64,000 nucleotides of DNA, taken from Gemmata massiliana. GTDB lineage: Bacteria > Planctomycetota > Planctomycetia > Gemmatales > Gemmataceae. The notes beneath the pieces were generated by a model, which saw only the letters and a list, made by a program, of their open reading frames with translations, had not been told where the DNA came from and ran no database searches. The stretch lies in NCBI RefSeq assembly GCF_901538265.1, contig NZ_LR593886.1, positions 1,240,001 through 1,304,000 of the forward strand, written 5' to 3'. Every line of letters begins with the position of its first letter. The stretch's first letter is position 1. Position numbers and translations under genes: made by a program. Shown in pieces: positions 1 through 6,134 of this stretch.

Positions 1-2123
1 ATGTCGAGGCGGGCAATGAGAGCACGTGCCGTGTCGAGCGTTTCAGTGTCTCCGCTGAGGACGATCGAGTTGGTGCGCGCGTCCGCCGTCATGGTGCCGT
101 TCGGGAACAACTTTTGAAGCACCGTGACCAGTTCTTCGGCTTTTGCGTGCTTTAATGTGAACACGTTGACGAACGCATCCGGCTTCCCTGGCGTTCCCGA
201 ACCGCCACTCACGCGGGGAGCCGCGGGGGCATCGAGTTCCGCGATCCGCTTGAGCGCGCTCTTGAGGTCATCAGGTGCGCTCGCGACGATCAGGACCGCG
301 TTCGTGGTGCGTTCGGCCGCGATTCGCAAACCCTTCTTCTCGAATTCCTTTTGAATTACCTTCACCACGCCGTCCGCGCTCGCGTTTTTTAGCGCGACAG
401 CTGCGCTGTCACTGCTGGAGCTGCCATGAAGCCCCCCGGCGCTACTGTTACCGCTACCACCACTGCCCCCGGGCGCTGCGCCACGAGCGGCTTCGCTTCG
501 AGCGTGGTACTTGAGGTACTCGGCTTTGGTCATCGTGCCCTTTTCGGGGAGCGGAACGCCGCCCGTTCGTTCGGTCATGCTTTTCAGGAAATCGCGCGTT
601 TGTGGGGGGATCGCGCCGAGATCCACGGTGTCACCGGTGCTGTTCGTGAGCCGTTGGAGCATCGCCCAACTACGCTCGGGGTCTGCCGACGCGCCGCGAT
701 TGCCACCGCCGCCCGGGCCACCGCTGGTGCCGCCACCGCCACCGAAGTTTCCTCCGAATCCGCCGCTACCTCCCCCGCCTCCTGGGAAGTTGCTTCCACT
801 ACCGCCGAAGCCCCCGCCGCCCGGGAATCCGCCGCCGCCACCGACCCCACCTCCTCCGGGGAACCCGCCTCCGCCCGGTTGACCGACCCCGCCTCCACCG
901 AAACTGCCACCACCTCCACCACCGAACCCACCGAAGGGATTGAAGCCGCTCGCGCCGCCCTTGGATTTCTTGAACACGAGCACGAGTTCCGCCGGTCCGA
1001 AGCGCTCGGACGAACAGAACTCCCACCCGTCCTTGCCGTGCTGCGTGATGGCCGACTCGAACGCTTTACGGTCGCTCCTCACGTCCACGAACTTGTATTC
1101 CCACGCAGGCGAAGGAGCTGTGTTCGTTCTACCGGAGCCGTTGGAGCTCGCGGTCGTGCCCGAATTCGTTCCGGAATCATCCGCACTGGAAGTGGAGGAC
1201 GTCGTTGTGCTCGAACCGCTCGAACCCGTGGATGTGGAACCACCCGTCGTGGTGGCGCTCGTTCCGCTACTCGAACCGGTACCGGTCCCGCCACCGGGCG
1301 GTTGAGCGTCGGCCTTTGACAGCAGCGCTGCGCCGCTCGTCAGCCCGAGTGTGGTGATTACCACGCTCGCCACCATCAGTTTCACGCGCATTGTGATACC
1401 CTCAGTAAATCCGCGAGCGAGCACCGACGCGGCTTTCGAGGCCGCGGTCGGTGTGCTGGGAAAGGCTCTGACCACATTGAACAGTCGGCCCGGCACCGCT
1501 CCTGTGGTGCTGGCCGTTACTCCGATGCCGATCGCGACCGCGGGCGCGACCCCGCGGGCACTGAGTCGCTCCATGAGCCGCTGACGCGCTTTGCAGAGGC
1601 GCCCGGACAGTGAGCCCAAAGGCCAGCCCAACCGCGCCGCGGCGTCCGGCTGCGACACGCCCTCCAGGTCGCACATCACGAAGGCGGTGCGTTCCACTTC
1701 CGGGAGTTGCTGGACTTCTTCGTGAACGGACCGGACGAGCGCGTCCCAACTCGCGGACGCCACGGGGCGCTCGGACTCGGCGTGGGACGCGATTTGCTCG
1801 CGCTGACGCCGGCGGGCGCCCGAGCGCTTCGCGCGGGTGGCGACACGCACCGCGACCCCGTGCAACCACGCGGGCACAGTCCGGCCGTCGCGGATGGTCG
1901 CCGCGGACCGCACGAGTGCGAGGAACACGGCCTGGAACGCGTCTTCGGCGTCGGCGTGGTCGGGGAGCATGTGCCGGCACACGGCCCATACGAGCGGCCC
2001 GTGCCGGCGTACCAGTTCTTCAAAGGCGGCGTGGTCCCGGTCGCGCGTGAACCGCGCGAGCAGGTCGGCGTCCGGGGTGATCGCCTCGGCTCTGCGGGCG
2101 ACCGCGTGCAGCAGTGTCGTCAT
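1..2123 (-). CDS. ECF sigma factor fused to TM segment, DUF4177-like domain and secretin-type N repeats (partial, 3' end outside window)
   Basis: Read on the minus strand from ATG at 2123, one frame stays open to the window edge (707 codons, no stop). Residues ~20-90 are sigma-70 region 2 (DADAEDAFQAVFLAL) and ~130-190 region 4 (MCDLEGVSQPDAAARLG). A hydrophobic segment follows at ~249-265 (LMVASVVITTLGLTSGAALL). After it come a low-complexity Ser/Thr/Gly stretch, a DUF4177-like domain at ~340-388 (WEYKFVDVRS...KDGWEF...VLVFKK), a glycine-rich region (~390-480) and two secretin_N/NolW-like repeats (~574-628 and ~652-707). ECF region 2+4 gives promoter recognition; the tail looks extracytoplasmic. 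An internal ATG at 1391 precedes the TM segment and could start a separate protein, but the other extended sigma factor here (47889-49070) has the same junction in one frame, so I call a fusion. Family assignments are from motif reading; the frame is certain. Confidence 0.8.
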   Translation of the reverse strand, partial: MTTLLHAVARRAEAITPDADLLARFTRDRDHAAFEELVRRHGPLVWAVCRHMLPDHADAEDAFQAVFLALVRSAATIRDGRTVPAWLHGVAVRVATRAKRSGARRRQREQIASHAESERPVASASWDALVRSVHEEVQQLPEVERTAFVMCDLEGVSQPDAAARLGWPLGSLSGRLCKARQRLMERLSARGVAPAVAIGIGVTASTTGAVPGRLFNVVRAFPSTPTAASKAASVLARGFTEGITMRVKLMVASVVITTLGLTSGAALLSKADAQPPGGGTGTGSSSGTSATTTGGSTSTGSSGSSTTTSSTSSADDSGTNSGTTASSNGSGRTNTAPSPAWEYKFVDVRSDRKAFESAITQHGKDGWEFCSSERFGPAELVLVFKKSKGGASGFNPFGGFGGGGGGSFGGGGVGQPGGGGFPGGGGVGGGGGFPGGGGFGGSGSNFPGGGGGSGGFGGNFGGGGGTSGGPGGGGNRGASADPERSWAMLQRLTNSTGDTVDLGAIPPQTRDFLKSMTERTGGVPLPEKGTMTKAEYLKYHARSEAARGAAPGGSGGSGNSSAGGLHGSSSSDSAAVALKNASADGVVKVIQKEFEKKGLRIAAERTTNAVLIVASAPDDLKSALKRIAELDAPAAPRVSGGSGTPGKPDAFVNVFTLKHAKAEELVTVLQKLFPNGTMTADARTNSIVLSGDTETLDTARALIARLD

Positions 2124-2164
2124 CACAACTAGGTTCCCGCGCCGCGGGGGTTCCTACCAGTGAT

Positions 2165-2211
2165 GCGAAAATGAGAAACCCCGGCCGGCGCGCCTCGCGC
2201 GCCGGCCGGGG
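2165..2211 (-). terminator. Rho-independent terminator after the large lipoprotein gene
   Basis: A 14-bp perfect GC stem (2179-2192 with 2198-2211) has a 5-nt loop and is followed, on the minus strand, by the T-rich stretch TTTCTCATTTT. It lies just after the stop at 2236 and before the sigma start at 2123, so it should separate the two transcripts. Confidence 0.75.
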
Positions 2212-2235: not shown

Positions 2236-5200
2236 TTAAGACCGGGGCAGTGGTGGTGCGGCTGGCAACGGCAGGGTAGGCGGTGCGACCGGAGCCGATA
2301 AAGGCGCCAGAGCTGGTTTGTCGTCCTTTTCCTTACCCTCCTTGTTGTTCTCCTTCTTCGGCTCGTCTTTCTTGTCGTCTTTTTTCGGCTCAGCGACCGG
2401 AACGTGCGCGCCGTCCTTACAAATTTGGCAGGCGAACTTGAGCGTCAACTCGCCCGCCACGGTTGCCCGTGTGACCGCTCGCTTGGGGTCGACGGGGGTG
2501 AGCTTGACGGACGTGACTTTGACTCCCTTTGTCAGTGGGTTAGTGTCGTCGGTGAACGGCCGGAACTGGTTTAGAGAGCGGAGCAACTCCGTCACCAGCA
2601 CCTTCAGCCCCGCGCTGTCGATAGTGTATGCCCCGTCCTTTTCCTCAATCTCCTTATCGAGGGTGACGGCGAACGGGCAGCCGTTGTACTCGAACCCGAA
2701 AGTCACCTTCGACACCTTTTGCGGGGCCACGCTCAGCGCGTCCGCCCAGTTGATCTTGAGGGCGGCGTCGGCGGGCGGGTCGACCACCCCCAGCAGGTAC
2801 TTCCCCTCCATACCCAGGCCGAATTTGCAGTACGGCAGTTCGAGAGCGTCGACGTCGAGCTTGTACCCCTCGGCTGCTTTGGGCGCCTCGGCTGTGGGTT
2901 TCGCGCTCACGACCGGGATGAGCAGTTCGCGGGTCACGCCGTAGGGTGTGGCGATGTGTGCCGTGACGTGCGGGCGCCCGTCCTTCAGTACGGTCAGTGT
3001 CCCCCTTGGTACCGTCACCTGTACCACCTGCCGGCTGAGCATCTTCTGGTTGTATGTGCCGGTCGCGGCCGCGGCCGTCGGTGCGTTGGTGATCGCGCGA
3101 TTGCCGACGATCACCTTGGTGTTGAGAGGGCTAAAGTGATCGCCGACCAGGAAGAGGGTGGTGGTGTCGTCCTCGGTGGACACGCCCGGCGCGCCGTACC
3201 ACCCGTACAGCTCCGGGGCCAGATCGGTGGTGCCGTTGCTGAACATCTCGAACCCGCCGAGCGTGTTAATCGCCGGCACTGGCACGTTCAGCGTCTGGGA
3301 GGGCAGACGCGATTCCAGCTGCTCGACCCGCCGGAGCAGGCGCCCCAACTCGCCGTCGCGGTAGCAGTTCGCGTCCTTGACCCCGCACCCAGCGTTTTTG
3401 ATAGCGTGAACTGTGTGACTGAGCTTGAGGGCTTGGGTGTGGTCGAGCACCTTGTGTTTGGGGTTGGCAAGGCCGAACCAGTTACTCGTTGTGTCCAGGG
3501 TAGCGTACGGGACGAACGACGGCATCATGACCACGGCCACGCACTCTCGCGGTCCCGGCTCGAGCCGCCGCTGGCGGAGCAGCGCGTTACGGTTCGGCCC
3601 ACCGATCAGCAGGTCGCGGGTAAACACGGTTAGGTTGCTCTCCGTGTCGGGCGTCTGGAACCGCGGGTAGAACCGCCAACCGAACGTGTTCTCGCCGTGC
3701 CCGAACCCGACCTGGGTACGGTTCAGCGCGATCGTCTCGGATTCGGCCTCCAGCCGGCGGGTGTACTTGGTCAGCGTGTCGACCCCGATAAACCCGTTGG
3801 TGAACGCGATGGACAGTGCCAGTTGCATTTCTCGGCGGGAACTGAACTGGTCGGCGATGTTCTGATCCTGGGTGTATGGGTCGAGGGCGAACACCCGGAT
3901 CGGCCACCGCATGGCGACGTAGGTATTGAAGGCGCATCGCGCTTCGGTCGGCGGCTCGGGTAGGTAGTACTGCGGCCAGTGATCGGCTGGGGGGGGCGAC
4001 TGTTTTTTGGCGGTCGCCGCCTCTCGCATGTCCCGCACCAGCCGGTCGTTGAGCAGCGCGGAATCGACGATGATGCACCACGCCAGGGCGGCCGTCACCG
4101 ACAGGTGCTGAGGTTCCTCCAAGCGGTACTTCCCGTCTTTGCCGCTATCTTTATCTTTGGTTGGCGGGTTGTACCCGGTTAGTGCGGCCAGTTCGGTGCG
4201 GTACGCTTGGCGGTATTTCAGTACCTCCTCGACCCGTTTCGAGCGGATCGCCTGCACGAGCGCCGGGGTGCAGTAGTGGGCCACCAAGTTCGGATTCTTG
4301 CGGAGCAACTCGTATGCCGCGCCCGCTTCTTCTTTGATGTACGACTGGATGTCTGGCAGGTGGGCATACTTCTGCCGCGCGATCGACGTGGCGAACGCTT
4401 TCTGAGCGCCGAATACGATCTCGAACACGGCGTGCGCGCCGTACACATCAAGCAACTGCGAGGTCGGGAACGCAGTGCGGTTGTCCAACCCGGCGGCGAA
4501 CCCGATTGTCGGTACGGCGAACCGGGTCTGGAACGACGTCGGGAGGGCGCCACGAACTGCGCCCGGCCTCATGAGCGGGGCGAGCTCCGGCGCGCCCGGT
4601 GTCTTTTCCGCGGCCAACGCATCGAATGCCGGCAAGAGTTCTGGGTCCGTCGTGGCGTACTTTTTGAACGCGCCGTACAGTTTGGGGTCCCCCTTTATCG
4701 CCCTCGCGTGGGCGACGGCGGCGTCCCATCGCCTGCACGACAGGTCGTCGTTCAACTGGGTGACGACGCGGACGAAGACCTGGAACTCGGCATTGAGCAG
4801 CACGGCGACGGTCGGGTCTTGGTCACCGAGCACCTGGGTAGCAGGGAACCCGAGCTGGTGCAGCAGGTCGTTGAGTACCAAGTTACGGAACGTGACCGGC
4901 AGCAGGTCGTCGCCGAGCACCGGGGTGAGCGTCATGGTGATCTCGGCCCCGTGGCCGACGTCCGTCCGCTTACCCGGCAGCACCGATACCGGCACCCGGA
5001 TCAGGTTGAGTGAGTACCCCGGGCCGTCGGCCGTATCGTCGCCCTCGTTTTCCCGGCGGATTTGGTTGAGGAAGTCCAGGTGCCGTTTCTTTTGCGCGAC
5101 GAACAGTGACGGCTCCAGCCCGATGCCCCCGTCTTTGATGGCGCCGAAGCCAATACCATTGGCGACCAACCCGCGCTTGATCACCGGAGTCGTGTCGGCC

Positions 5201-5844
5201 GGGTCGTTAATCAGTTTTGCCGCAGTGCCGGCCGCGCCGCCCGTGGGCGCCGTCGGCGCCGCGGGCGCGGGTGTAGGCGTGGGCGTGGGCGCAGTTGGTG
5301 CCGCGAGGGTCGTGTTGGTCGTCGTCTGTACCCCGGTCGTCGGGTCCGTGCCTACGACCTGGATCGTCTGCCCGGTCGGGACCAGGGCCGGCGCTTCTAC
5401 CTTCGTACTCTCCACCCGGCCGATCACCGGCGGCTTTGGCTGTGCCGCCAACGACAGGGCCGTCGCGTGCGCGAAGAATGCCTGGTCGCTTCGCGCGAGC
5501 GACCCTTGGAGGCCGACTTTAAACTGGTTGTCTGCGTTGTCCAAGCTCATCTGCATCTCGAACTCTTCGCGGTAGCGGGTGAGCCGCGCCTGCCCCCATA
5601 CGTCCGGGGCCTTCGCTACGACGCTCCCGTACCAATCGACGTGCTTTTCCAGGTGATCCAGGTCGGTCGCCAGCGCGTGCATCGTCGGGTTGGTTGTTAT
5701 CTTCGGTTCGTGTATCGGTGGCACTGACGCGCACCCATCGTCCCCGCACGGTTCCGGTGGCTTGATGAGCGTCTGGCACGCCGCCAGTGCGAACGGGAGC
5801 GCCAACGCTGCTCCGTGCCCCAGCTTCCGCAGTCTCGTTCTCAT
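2236..5844 (-). CDS. Large secreted lipoprotein of unknown function
   Basis: 1202 residues. The chosen ATG (5844) has GGGGGA about 8 nt upstream and gives a classical lipoprotein signal: basic MRTRLRKL, hydrophobic core, lipobox LAAC with Cys23. An in-frame start at 5919 would bury this signal, so I reject it. After the lipobox come a short Cys-containing segment, a Thr/Pro/Ala-rich linker (~170-215), a long globular part (~225-830), a stretch that may be an IPT/Ig-like strand region (~945-990, FSPLNTKVIVGNRAI), and a Lys/Asp/Glu-rich then Pro-rich tail. It should be anchored on the outer face of a membrane. I recognise no enzyme motif. It is a single-gene unit with its own terminator. Confidence 0.85.
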   Translation of the reverse strand: MRTRLRKLGHGAALALPFALAACQTLIKPPEPCGDDGCASVPPIHEPKITTNPTMHALATDLDHLEKHVDWYGSVVAKAPDVWGQARLTRYREEFEMQMSLDNADNQFKVGLQGSLARSDQAFFAHATALSLAAQPKPPVIGRVESTKVEAPALVPTGQTIQVVGTDPTTGVQTTTNTTLAAPTAPTPTPTPAPAAPTAPTGGAAGTAAKLINDPADTTPVIKRGLVANGIGFGAIKDGGIGLEPSLFVAQKKRHLDFLNQIRRENEGDDTADGPGYSLNLIRVPVSVLPGKRTDVGHGAEITMTLTPVLGDDLLPVTFRNLVLNDLLHQLGFPATQVLGDQDPTVAVLLNAEFQVFVRVVTQLNDDLSCRRWDAAVAHARAIKGDPKLYGAFKKYATTDPELLPAFDALAAEKTPGAPELAPLMRPGAVRGALPTSFQTRFAVPTIGFAAGLDNRTAFPTSQLLDVYGAHAVFEIVFGAQKAFATSIARQKYAHLPDIQSYIKEEAGAAYELLRKNPNLVAHYCTPALVQAIRSKRVEEVLKYRQAYRTELAALTGYNPPTKDKDSGKDGKYRLEEPQHLSVTAALAWCIIVDSALLNDRLVRDMREAATAKKQSPPPADHWPQYYLPEPPTEARCAFNTYVAMRWPIRVFALDPYTQDQNIADQFSSRREMQLALSIAFTNGFIGVDTLTKYTRRLEAESETIALNRTQVGFGHGENTFGWRFYPRFQTPDTESNLTVFTRDLLIGGPNRNALLRQRRLEPGPRECVAVVMMPSFVPYATLDTTSNWFGLANPKHKVLDHTQALKLSHTVHAIKNAGCGVKDANCYRDGELGRLLRRVEQLESRLPSQTLNVPVPAINTLGGFEMFSNGTTDLAPELYGWYGAPGVSTEDDTTTLFLVGDHFSPLNTKVIVGNRAITNAPTAAAATGTYNQKMLSRQVVQVTVPRGTLTVLKDGRPHVTAHIATPYGVTRELLIPVVSAKPTAEAPKAAEGYKLDVDALELPYCKFGLGMEGKYLLGVVDPPADAALKINWADALSVAPQKVSKVTFGFEYNGCPFAVTLDKEIEEKDGAYTIDSAGLKVLVTELLRSLNQFRPFTDDTNPLTKGVKVTSVKLTPVDPKRAVTRATVAGELTLKFACQICKDGAHVPVAEPKKDDKKDEPKKENNKEGKEKDDKPALAPLSAPVAPPTLPLPAAPPLPRS

Positions 5845-6134
5845 GAGCGATTCCCCCGAGTTACCTATCCCCTCTGGGCGATCCCGGCCCCAGCCGGAAT
5901 ACACCGACCACAACACCAAACTGATTGTCTCAATTGTGGTCGACTTTTACGGTCGATTGGCTTGAAGCAAATATGTGACTTGTGATGGCGCGAAAGTGAT
6001 CGGCGGGATCAGTATTATTTCAAGATCGCTCGGCGCGCGTGCGAGCCCTGCTCGGCCATCAACTCCTTGACGCGCACGTGCCCCGAGGGACAATGGCGAC
6101 CGGTATCGTCCGTTACTCTCCCGGAGTTCCTCTC

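Follow-up and report, generated by a model that had tools for sequence, protein, structure and literature searches.

An ECF sigma factor gene of Gemmata massiliana with Secretin_N domains and a putative internal start for a sigma-free exported protein

The window analysed here is a 64,000-nucleotide stretch of Gemmata massiliana DNA (G000:C1:1240001-1304000, from a genome that is a single contig of 10.1 Mb). At its beginning, on the minus strand, lies a gene in which an extracytoplasmic function (ECF) sigma factor, a hydrophobic segment, a DUF4177-like domain and two Secretin_N domains share one reading frame. Comparison with its relatives points to a sigma factor that is tethered in the membrane and regulates itself; from an internal start codon, ATG 1391, the same gene would also yield an exported Secretin_N protein that lacks the sigma part. 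We hold this reading to be probable, with some reserve. The evidence for the fusion, for the internal start and for a promoter-like element upstream of the gene is given below, and the coordinates are collected in Table 1.

Results

One complete frame joins an ECF sigma factor to Secretin_N domains

The open reading frames of the window include an open minus-strand frame from 2126 to 3. In the genome this frame is complete (L031:7979-10126(-)), with 715 codons from GTG 2126 or 714 codons from ATG 2123, and the ATG is used as the start in more distant relatives. The stop lies 20-22 bases beyond the window edge, and the protein ends in MEVVKPK, immediately past the second Secretin_N domain. The one long frame that the first-pass annotation of this DNA had read was confirmed when the contig was extended to the stop. 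Between 1391 and 2123, where by that annotation a break in the frame would refute the fusion, the assembled sequence contains neither a stop nor a frameshift. The frame is very unlikely to be a product of chance or of misassembly, because it is intact as a single frame in two close relatives (full-length identities of 88% and 83%) and in more distant ones; a broken or misassembled frame was rejected, given that the frame is open in relatives. On the sequence evidence, the fusion of sigma and envelope-type domains is real.

Both Sigma70_r2 (55.0 bits) and Sigma70_r4_2 (41.2 bits) were matched above the Pfam cut-off, as was TIGR02937 (63.3 bits) above its own, and no other sigma region was found in the Pfam listing of the protein. 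With regions 2 and 4 only, the protein fits an ECF sigma factor of the sigma-70 family. The hydrophobic segment begins about 60 residues past region 4. DUF4177 scored 22.9 bits on the whole protein (cut-off 25) and 27.6 bits, above the cut-off, in the genome search. A helical module sits within the glycine-rich part, in a stretch (query residues 420-566, partly glycine-rich) that is 61% identical to L033:4355-5866, a stand-alone protein with EF-hand Pfam matches and a signal-peptide-like start. Secretin_N scored 74.9 bits on the whole protein, in two stretches and above the cut-off. A phmmer search with the last 198 residues found GspD, and the best PDB matches of the predicted structure in Foldseek were secretins of the GspD/XcpQ type, followed by ECF sigma factors. 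Pfam and hydropathy thus bear out the domain order that had been proposed from the sequence, namely sigma regions 2 and 4, a transmembrane segment, a DUF4177-like domain, a glycine-rich part and two Secretin_N domains.

A secretin gate, for which the first-pass annotation had left room beyond the window, does not follow. The stop comes right after the second Secretin_N domain, so no gate lies downstream, and PF00263 has no match in the protein, the gate matches of the G. massiliana genome being at other loci. The protein was therefore rejected as a true secretin, even though the N domains are present. No FecR-like or zinc anti-sigma domain was matched in Pfam at E-values up to 1, a search that a very short or diverged segment could escape, and seven related sigma proteins had no Pfam match to an anti-sigma domain at an E-value of 0.5. 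WD40-like repeats were not found in the protein by Pfam.

The fusion is conserved within the genus

In a search of 41 genomes at E-values up to 1e-60, in which only the best candidates were scored and weaker matches are possible elsewhere, 14 places of the subfamily were found in 11 genomes, all within the genus. Homologues with the proposed domain order occur in several species, and the succession of sigma, transmembrane, DUF4177-like and Secretin_N parts is kept in more distant members, down to 44% identity. Pfam identifies sigma regions 2 and 4 together with Secretin_N in each of L047, L048, L050, L053 and L188. L188, from a metagenome-assembled genome (MAG) of the same family, shows the same plan at 44% identity. 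DUF4177 is in the Pfam listing of L047, L048, L053 and L032, above the cut-off only in L053 (26.8 bits); it is absent from the Pfam listing of L050 and L188, in which the motif is nonetheless visible in the alignment. Some copies are incomplete: those of G006 and G018 hit contig ends, and that of G016 has its sigma part and tail in different frames. A scan of wider genome contigs gave eight loci, comprising three full or partial Gemmata/Gemmataceae copies, one partial planctomycete tail and four sigma-only matches of myxobacterial or deltaproteobacterial origin.

A second copy in G. massiliana (L032:6675-8486) has one Secretin_N domain. This copy and a further tailed ECF gene are arranged head to head, with 153 base pairs between them (L032:4740-8486), and the same arrangement was seen in two relatives (L051 and L052).

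Five relatives encode Secretin_N proteins that stand alone, about 91-95 residues long and composed of hardly more than a signal-peptide-like start and a single Secretin_N domain (L157 in G006, L159 in G004, L161 in G017, L166 in G011 and L167 in G010). In four of the five genomes, the search at E-values up to 1e-60 had found no fused gene of the subfamily. Because such small stand-alone proteins exist and the gate is absent, Secretin_N is no evidence of secretion here. The earlier claim that one chain unites a transcription factor and an envelope- or secretion-type sensor is thus upheld as to the single frame and this order, in several species, while its secretion part is not indicated.

The tethered plan is typical of a large paralog family

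The query had 129 matches in the G. massiliana genome; 21 low-scoring ones (E-value 2e-15 or weaker, frames of 179-365 codons) were omitted and three were tail pieces. The 104 loci analysed are 104 distinct sigma genes, of which 102 tails entered alignment set A1 and 103 genes, including the broken L123, entered the start test described below. By a crude measure (a 19-residue stretch with hydropathy >1.6), a hydrophobic segment follows region 4 in 101 of the 104 sigma genes. The succession of sigma factor, membrane segment and tail is therefore typical of the family, and what sets this gene apart is its Secretin_N cargo. Secretin_N tails are on three of the 104 genes. These belong to two distant branches of the sigma tree, L031/L032 (support 0.992) and L056, the latter with four stretches of Secretin_N.

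Propeller families were matched by Pfam in at least 31 of 102 tails. Set A2 consisted of 69 of the 81 tails scored as non-propeller by motif count, and the families listed for these 69 include Secretin_N (three tails), CarboxypepD_reg (four) and PD40 (four), as well as HlyD, Poly_export, F5/8C, LRR and others on single tails. Many of the tail families are domains of exported or envelope proteins.

Some ECF paralogs of other structure were also observed. The sigma parts of L136 (G000:C1:6239592-6241858) and L123 (G000:C1:3093712-3094851) are split between frames, and the tail of L136, in a different frame from its sigma part, matches the secretin gate with 46.1 bits. L096 (G000:C1:4652302-4654548) has a peptidase-looking tail, about 34 residues of which resemble the end of the secretin gate (26.7 bits).

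An internal Shine-Dalgarno sequence and start codon recur before the membrane segment

ATG 1391, the internal codon to which the first-pass annotation had drawn attention, is followed by MRVKLMVASVVITTLGLTSGAALLSKADA/Q, a stretch that in our own reading has the layout of a signal peptide. Its Ala-Asp-Ala/Gln, which we take to be a signal-peptidase-I-like motif, has an invariant A273 and a nearly invariant Q274 in alignment A4 (n=10), and Ala-x-Ala followed by Gln or Glu comes after the hydrophobic segment in most of the clade. The Shine-Dalgarno sequence GAGGG was found in 10 of 12 clade members; L048 has GGGGG, and the MAG copy L188 has GAGAGG over different amino acids. The spacing at ATG 1391 is 7-8 nt.

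The same site was then compared across the paralog family. In 68 of 103 genes, a Met is found within the 17 residues that lead up to and include the beginning of the hydrophobic segment, compared with 14% of 4018 random 17-residue windows. A Shine-Dalgarno sequence precedes 63% of those pre-membrane ATGs; the share is 58% at annotated starts and 8.8% at other internal ATGs (n=547). Conservation of Met, Glu and Gly might reflect selection on the protein, and synonymous recoding with the family's own codon usage therefore served as the null. A Shine-Dalgarno sequence with ATG or GTG was present in 61 of 103 paralogs, against a recoded mean of 18.6 (standard deviation 3.4, maximum 31 in 1000 recodings), and 11 of 12 control windows were near or below expectation. 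GGA, the glycine codon that creates the Shine-Dalgarno sequence, was used at 39 of 61 pre-membrane G[VIL] sites; its share was 161 of 1124 in the rest of the genes and 55 of 476 when six conserved glycines of the sigma part were counted. Relative to its degrees of freedom, the GGA position showed the largest deviation in a set of 56 anchored genes (G 75.1, 3 degrees of freedom), with mild deviations at some neighbouring positions.

Five genome groups from other genera and families gave 32 of 51 loci with the site, against 9.7 ± 2.4 (maximum 17 in 300 recodings), in a test run after the spacing and window limits had been fixed. For this set, 16 of 30 loci and 40 places chosen by score were taken (56 loci), and 14 weaker ones, mostly short ECFs, were omitted. 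A usable window was available in 55 and a hydrophobic segment in 51, and a few of these are recent duplicates (e.g. L201 and L219, which share a junction). As a further control, 30 of 128 kinases were taken, and 24 had a qualifying membrane segment after the kinase domain. None of the 24 had a Shine-Dalgarno sequence with a start (1.2 expected), and a Shine-Dalgarno 4-mer at the membrane segment was seen in 2 of 24 kinases, against 65 of 103 sigma genes. The site is therefore no general mark of membrane segments. For the family as a whole, judged by these codon comparisons, the Shine-Dalgarno sequence and start are beyond what the protein sequence forces.

Exact matches to a promoter-like element lie only upstream of this sigma subfamily

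The element TAGGAAC-N11-GGGAACCTA lies directly upstream of ATG 2123. The pattern TAGGAAY-N11-GGGAACYTA had 13 exact matches in 19 genomes of the genus, all 13 just upstream of the sigma subfamily. Thirteen of the 14 subfamily places have the element, the one without it being the most diverged (G013, 51%), and the two exact matches in the G. massiliana genome are at the two subfamily genes. A family-wide promoter was rejected, as the exact element was found only at this subfamily and not seen upstream of other paralogs. The confinement of the exact element suggests autoregulation, which predicts that the best promoter of a sigma factor is its own; weaker targets may exist as well. The transcript would start at about ATG 2123, and no Shine-Dalgarno sequence precedes that ATG.

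When one mismatch was allowed, four further matches were found in the genus, and five in the backward control. One of these sites has no frame of at least 90 codons nearby and one has frames only up to 109 codons; the others lie 107 nt before a kinase-like frame (422 codons) and near an unrelated frame (492 codons). The four were taken as chance matches, and the kinase could be a real target.

Two observations on upstream regions are added here. Copies of G007, G018 and G016 (L038, L043 and L054) have a similar leader of about 55 nt between element and ATG, which is not in the window copy and which, by eye, looks able to form a stem. L008, L015, L017, L065 and other tailed ECF genes have a different upstream pattern, CGCGACGCGC with an A/T-rich -10-like stretch, and the types of promoter may thus differ by subfamily.

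Other features of the window

Table 1. Features of the sigma gene and its upstream region, in window positions (pLDDT, predicted local distance difference test)
Feature	Position	Strand	Basis or remark
Terminator-like hairpin, between upstream gene and sigma gene	2179..2211	-	15 G-C pairs, T-rich tail
TAGGAAC-N11-GGGAACCTA	2130..2156	-	candidate ECF -35 TAGGAAC, 16-nt spacer, -10 CCTA
Sigma-TM-DUF4177-Secretin_N gene (TM, transmembrane), 714 codons from ATG 2123	3..2123	-	last codons and stop just beyond window
Sigma-70 region 2, with Cys49	1812..2015	-	Pfam; Cys in 90/98 paralogs
Sigma-70 region 4, with Cys151	1575..1730	-	Pfam; Cys in 97/98 paralogs
Internal Shine-Dalgarno GAGGG (putative), 7 nt before ATG 1391	1399..1403	-	sequence and family tests
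Internal start codon ATG (putative; Met245), first residue of signal-peptide-like stretch	1389..1391	-	sequence and family tests
Hydrophobic (transmembrane or signal) segment, residues ~249-268, Arg/Lys before	1320..1379	-	hydropathy 1.85 over 19 residues
Signal-peptidase-I-like motif Ala-Asp-Ala/Gln, residues 271-274	1302..1313	-	alignment A4
DUF4177-like domain, residues 341-386	966..1103	-	Pfam; model strand-helix-strand-strand
Helical module, residues ~481-548	480..683	-	common to stand-alone EF-hand protein L033:4355-5866; pLDDT 81-94
Secretin_N domain 1	222..401	-	24.3 bits alone, below cut-off 28.2; pLDDT 79-89
Secretin_N domain 2	3..167	-	62.7 bits; pLDDT 69-84

The terminator-like hairpin is statistically weak (1 found, 0.7 expected in shuffles). 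The upstream gene (2236-5919, minus strand) has 1227 codons and a lipoprotein-like start, and no Pfam match was found for it at E-values up to 1.

Discussion

Proposed mechanism

From the frame, the domains, their conservation, the promoter-like element and the internal Shine-Dalgarno sequence and start, we infer the topology, autoregulation, second product and signalling step as follows. Regions 2 and 4 would be cytoplasmic, one hydrophobic segment would cross the membrane, and the tail, with its DUF4177-like, EF-hand-protein-like and Secretin_N parts, would lie outside. The placement of the tail outside is suggested because other tails of the family carry HlyD, Poly_export, F5/8C and CarboxypepD_reg, because the helical module is common to a protein with a signal-peptide-like start, and because the stand-alone Secretin_N proteins have signal-peptide-like starts. 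The gene would be transcribed from its own ECF-type promoter, and the sigma factor would probably control itself and little else, as far as the exact promoter type is concerned. At ATG 1391 of the same messenger, a second protein would begin, with signal peptide and tail and no sigma part. The Ala-x-Ala/Gln motif points to a cleavable signal peptide, and together with the internal Shine-Dalgarno sequence and start at ATG 1391, Ala-Asp-Ala/Gln suggests that the tail also, or mainly, exists as an exported protein of its own.

The Secretin_N domains of secretins assemble into rings through lateral contacts. Whether free or tethered, the tail may meet an envelope partner through such domains; possible partners are the stand-alone Secretin_N proteins, the tail itself and a large secretin of 2230 codons (L197:3882-10574). 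Binding of the partner or cleavage of the tether would alter the amount of sigma that reaches RNA polymerase. By analogy, sigma might be released by proteolysis, with IutY as the nearest precedent. Detergent-soluble fractions of another planctomycete are reported to contain ECF sigma factors (PMC8567305), which fits membrane association and concerns the sigma factors of that organism.

Comparison with known systems

Comparisons with ECF groups refer to parts of a published review (PMC8999054). There, IutY of Pseudomonas putida (ECF243) likewise unites an ECF sigma factor, a membrane segment and a periplasmic part in one frame, under the kind of tether control proposed here, and it is reported to be activated by proteolysis. 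An anti-sigma part belongs to IutY, whereas the only Pfam extension domains here are DUF4177 and Secretin_N. In ECF57, WD40-like C-terminal extensions are described as prevalent, in that text not as obligatory, and two conserved cysteines may link regions 2 and 4. Cys49 and Cys151 of the present protein, conserved among the paralogs (Table 1), and the propeller tails on at least 31 of 102 paralogs resemble this group, which was compared by its description in the review only; Secretin_N and DUF4177 without propeller repeats set the present protein apart. The actinobacterial groups ECF48, ECF52 and ECF53 (e.g. SCO4117) also encode sigma factor, transmembrane segment and extracytoplasmic tail in a single gene; the zinc-finger anti-sigma-type domain described for them has no Pfam match here.

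The tail resembles type II secretins (GspD/XcpQ) in N-domain fold and sequence, but here the gate domain is absent and the N domains are joined to a sigma factor. CheA and InfB are bacterial genes with in-frame internal starts, giving two products per frame, and we know of no such gene that encodes a sigma factor. Here, in contrast to CheA and InfB, a signal peptide would stand at the N-terminus of the shorter product, and many paralogs of one family have the site. ECFs with C-terminal extensions, planctomycete WD40 ECFs and tethered sigma/anti-sigma fusions are already in print (in the parts considered of PMC8999054, PMC8567305 and PMC8103513). No paper on Secretin_N tails of sigma factors or on internal starts in such genes was found in open-licence PubMed Central. 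The nested start would be a larger result than the Secretin_N fusion, if confirmed by experiment.

Alternative explanations

Several observations weigh against the reading proposed here, and a number of them favour other explanations. The Shine-Dalgarno sequence and start are missing in 42 of 103 paralogs, the start would be GTG in 12 of 61, the pre-membrane valines of genes without Met are not clearly richer in GTG (25/53 vs 2493/6333), and the commonest spacing is 11 nt, long for initiation, compared with 5-8 nt at annotated starts. The missing starts, the valines and the spacing would suit a gene with one product only, a single tethered sigma-sensor chain in which GGAG/GAGG causes a translational pause for sigma to fold before membrane insertion and the Met is incidental. 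We regard this as rather unlikely, given that the Met itself is conserved near the hydrophobic segment and that the 4-mer is so much rarer in membrane kinases of the same genome. Other points bear on the tests themselves. The control window at -140 was also high (20 vs 9.9 expected), a synonymous-site scan of the ten-member clade did not single out the junction, and other conserved sigma columns are codon-skewed as well, towards common codons (e.g. Ala GCG 71/91). Moreover, the spacing limit was widened from 4-10 to 4-12 nt, and the window slightly, after a first look at the data; before widening, the counts were 18 vs 6.6 (ATG) and 25 vs 9.7 (any start). With up to two mismatches, the promoter pattern had four matches in the G. 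massiliana genome vs three in the backward control, which is uninformative on a looser regulon. The AlphaFold model is weak overall (mean pLDDT 55.2, predicted template modelling score 0.23, 343 of 714 residues below 50), with pLDDT of 41-79 in the sigma part and 25-40 in the membrane segment.

The fusion might also not last. If signal peptidase I cut after Ala273 in both products, the sigma part with its membrane segment and the exported tail would be separate, and the tail would be no sensor of that sigma factor. Ala-x-Ala with Gln or Glu, kept in most of the clade, and the existence of stand-alone exported-type Secretin_N proteins argue for such a cut. Yet the Ala-x-Ala signal is only modest family-wide (84/102 vs 67.1 ± 4.4), and the frame stays open in intact relatives, which separate proteins would not need, making this explanation improbable. 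The site is scattered on the sigma tree (28 changes vs 29.9 with shuffled labels), the tails are very diverse, and Secretin_N tails are on two distant branches (L031/L032 and L056), as would be expected of relics: sigma genes would have taken up genes for exported proteins again and again, joining them at the start codon, and Shine-Dalgarno sequence, start and signal peptide would be of no present use. Against this, the junction (EGV..M) is recognisable across many paralogs whose sigma domains are a median of 2.04 substitutions per site apart, a distance at which unused synonymous choices should have been lost. The GGA position also shows the strongest deviation for its degrees of freedom, and no GGA excess is seen at conserved sigma glycines, so that relics appear very improbable. 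A tethered sigma factor with a second, exported product from ATG 1391 is the explanation that we prefer.

Implications

About a hundred genes of G. massiliana encode ECF sigma factors with long tails. If the internal start is real, it offers a testable idea of how tailed sigma factors are controlled, and the clade-specific promoter element makes autoregulation directly testable. A wider picture is possible, and we put it forward as a doubtful one: about half of the hundred-odd Gemmata-type membrane sigma genes would be nested, each encoding a tethered sigma-sensor and also, by initiation inside the frame, a free version of that sensor, exported or in the membrane, that has no sigma part, and the sigma factor of this clade would drive essentially only its own promoter. 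Sigma, tether and exported Secretin_N tail would then make up a closed loop of self-regulation, with free and tethered tails competing for the same envelope partner. If true, sensor and decoy would come from one gene, and standard annotation would hide dozens of exported proteins inside sigma genes.

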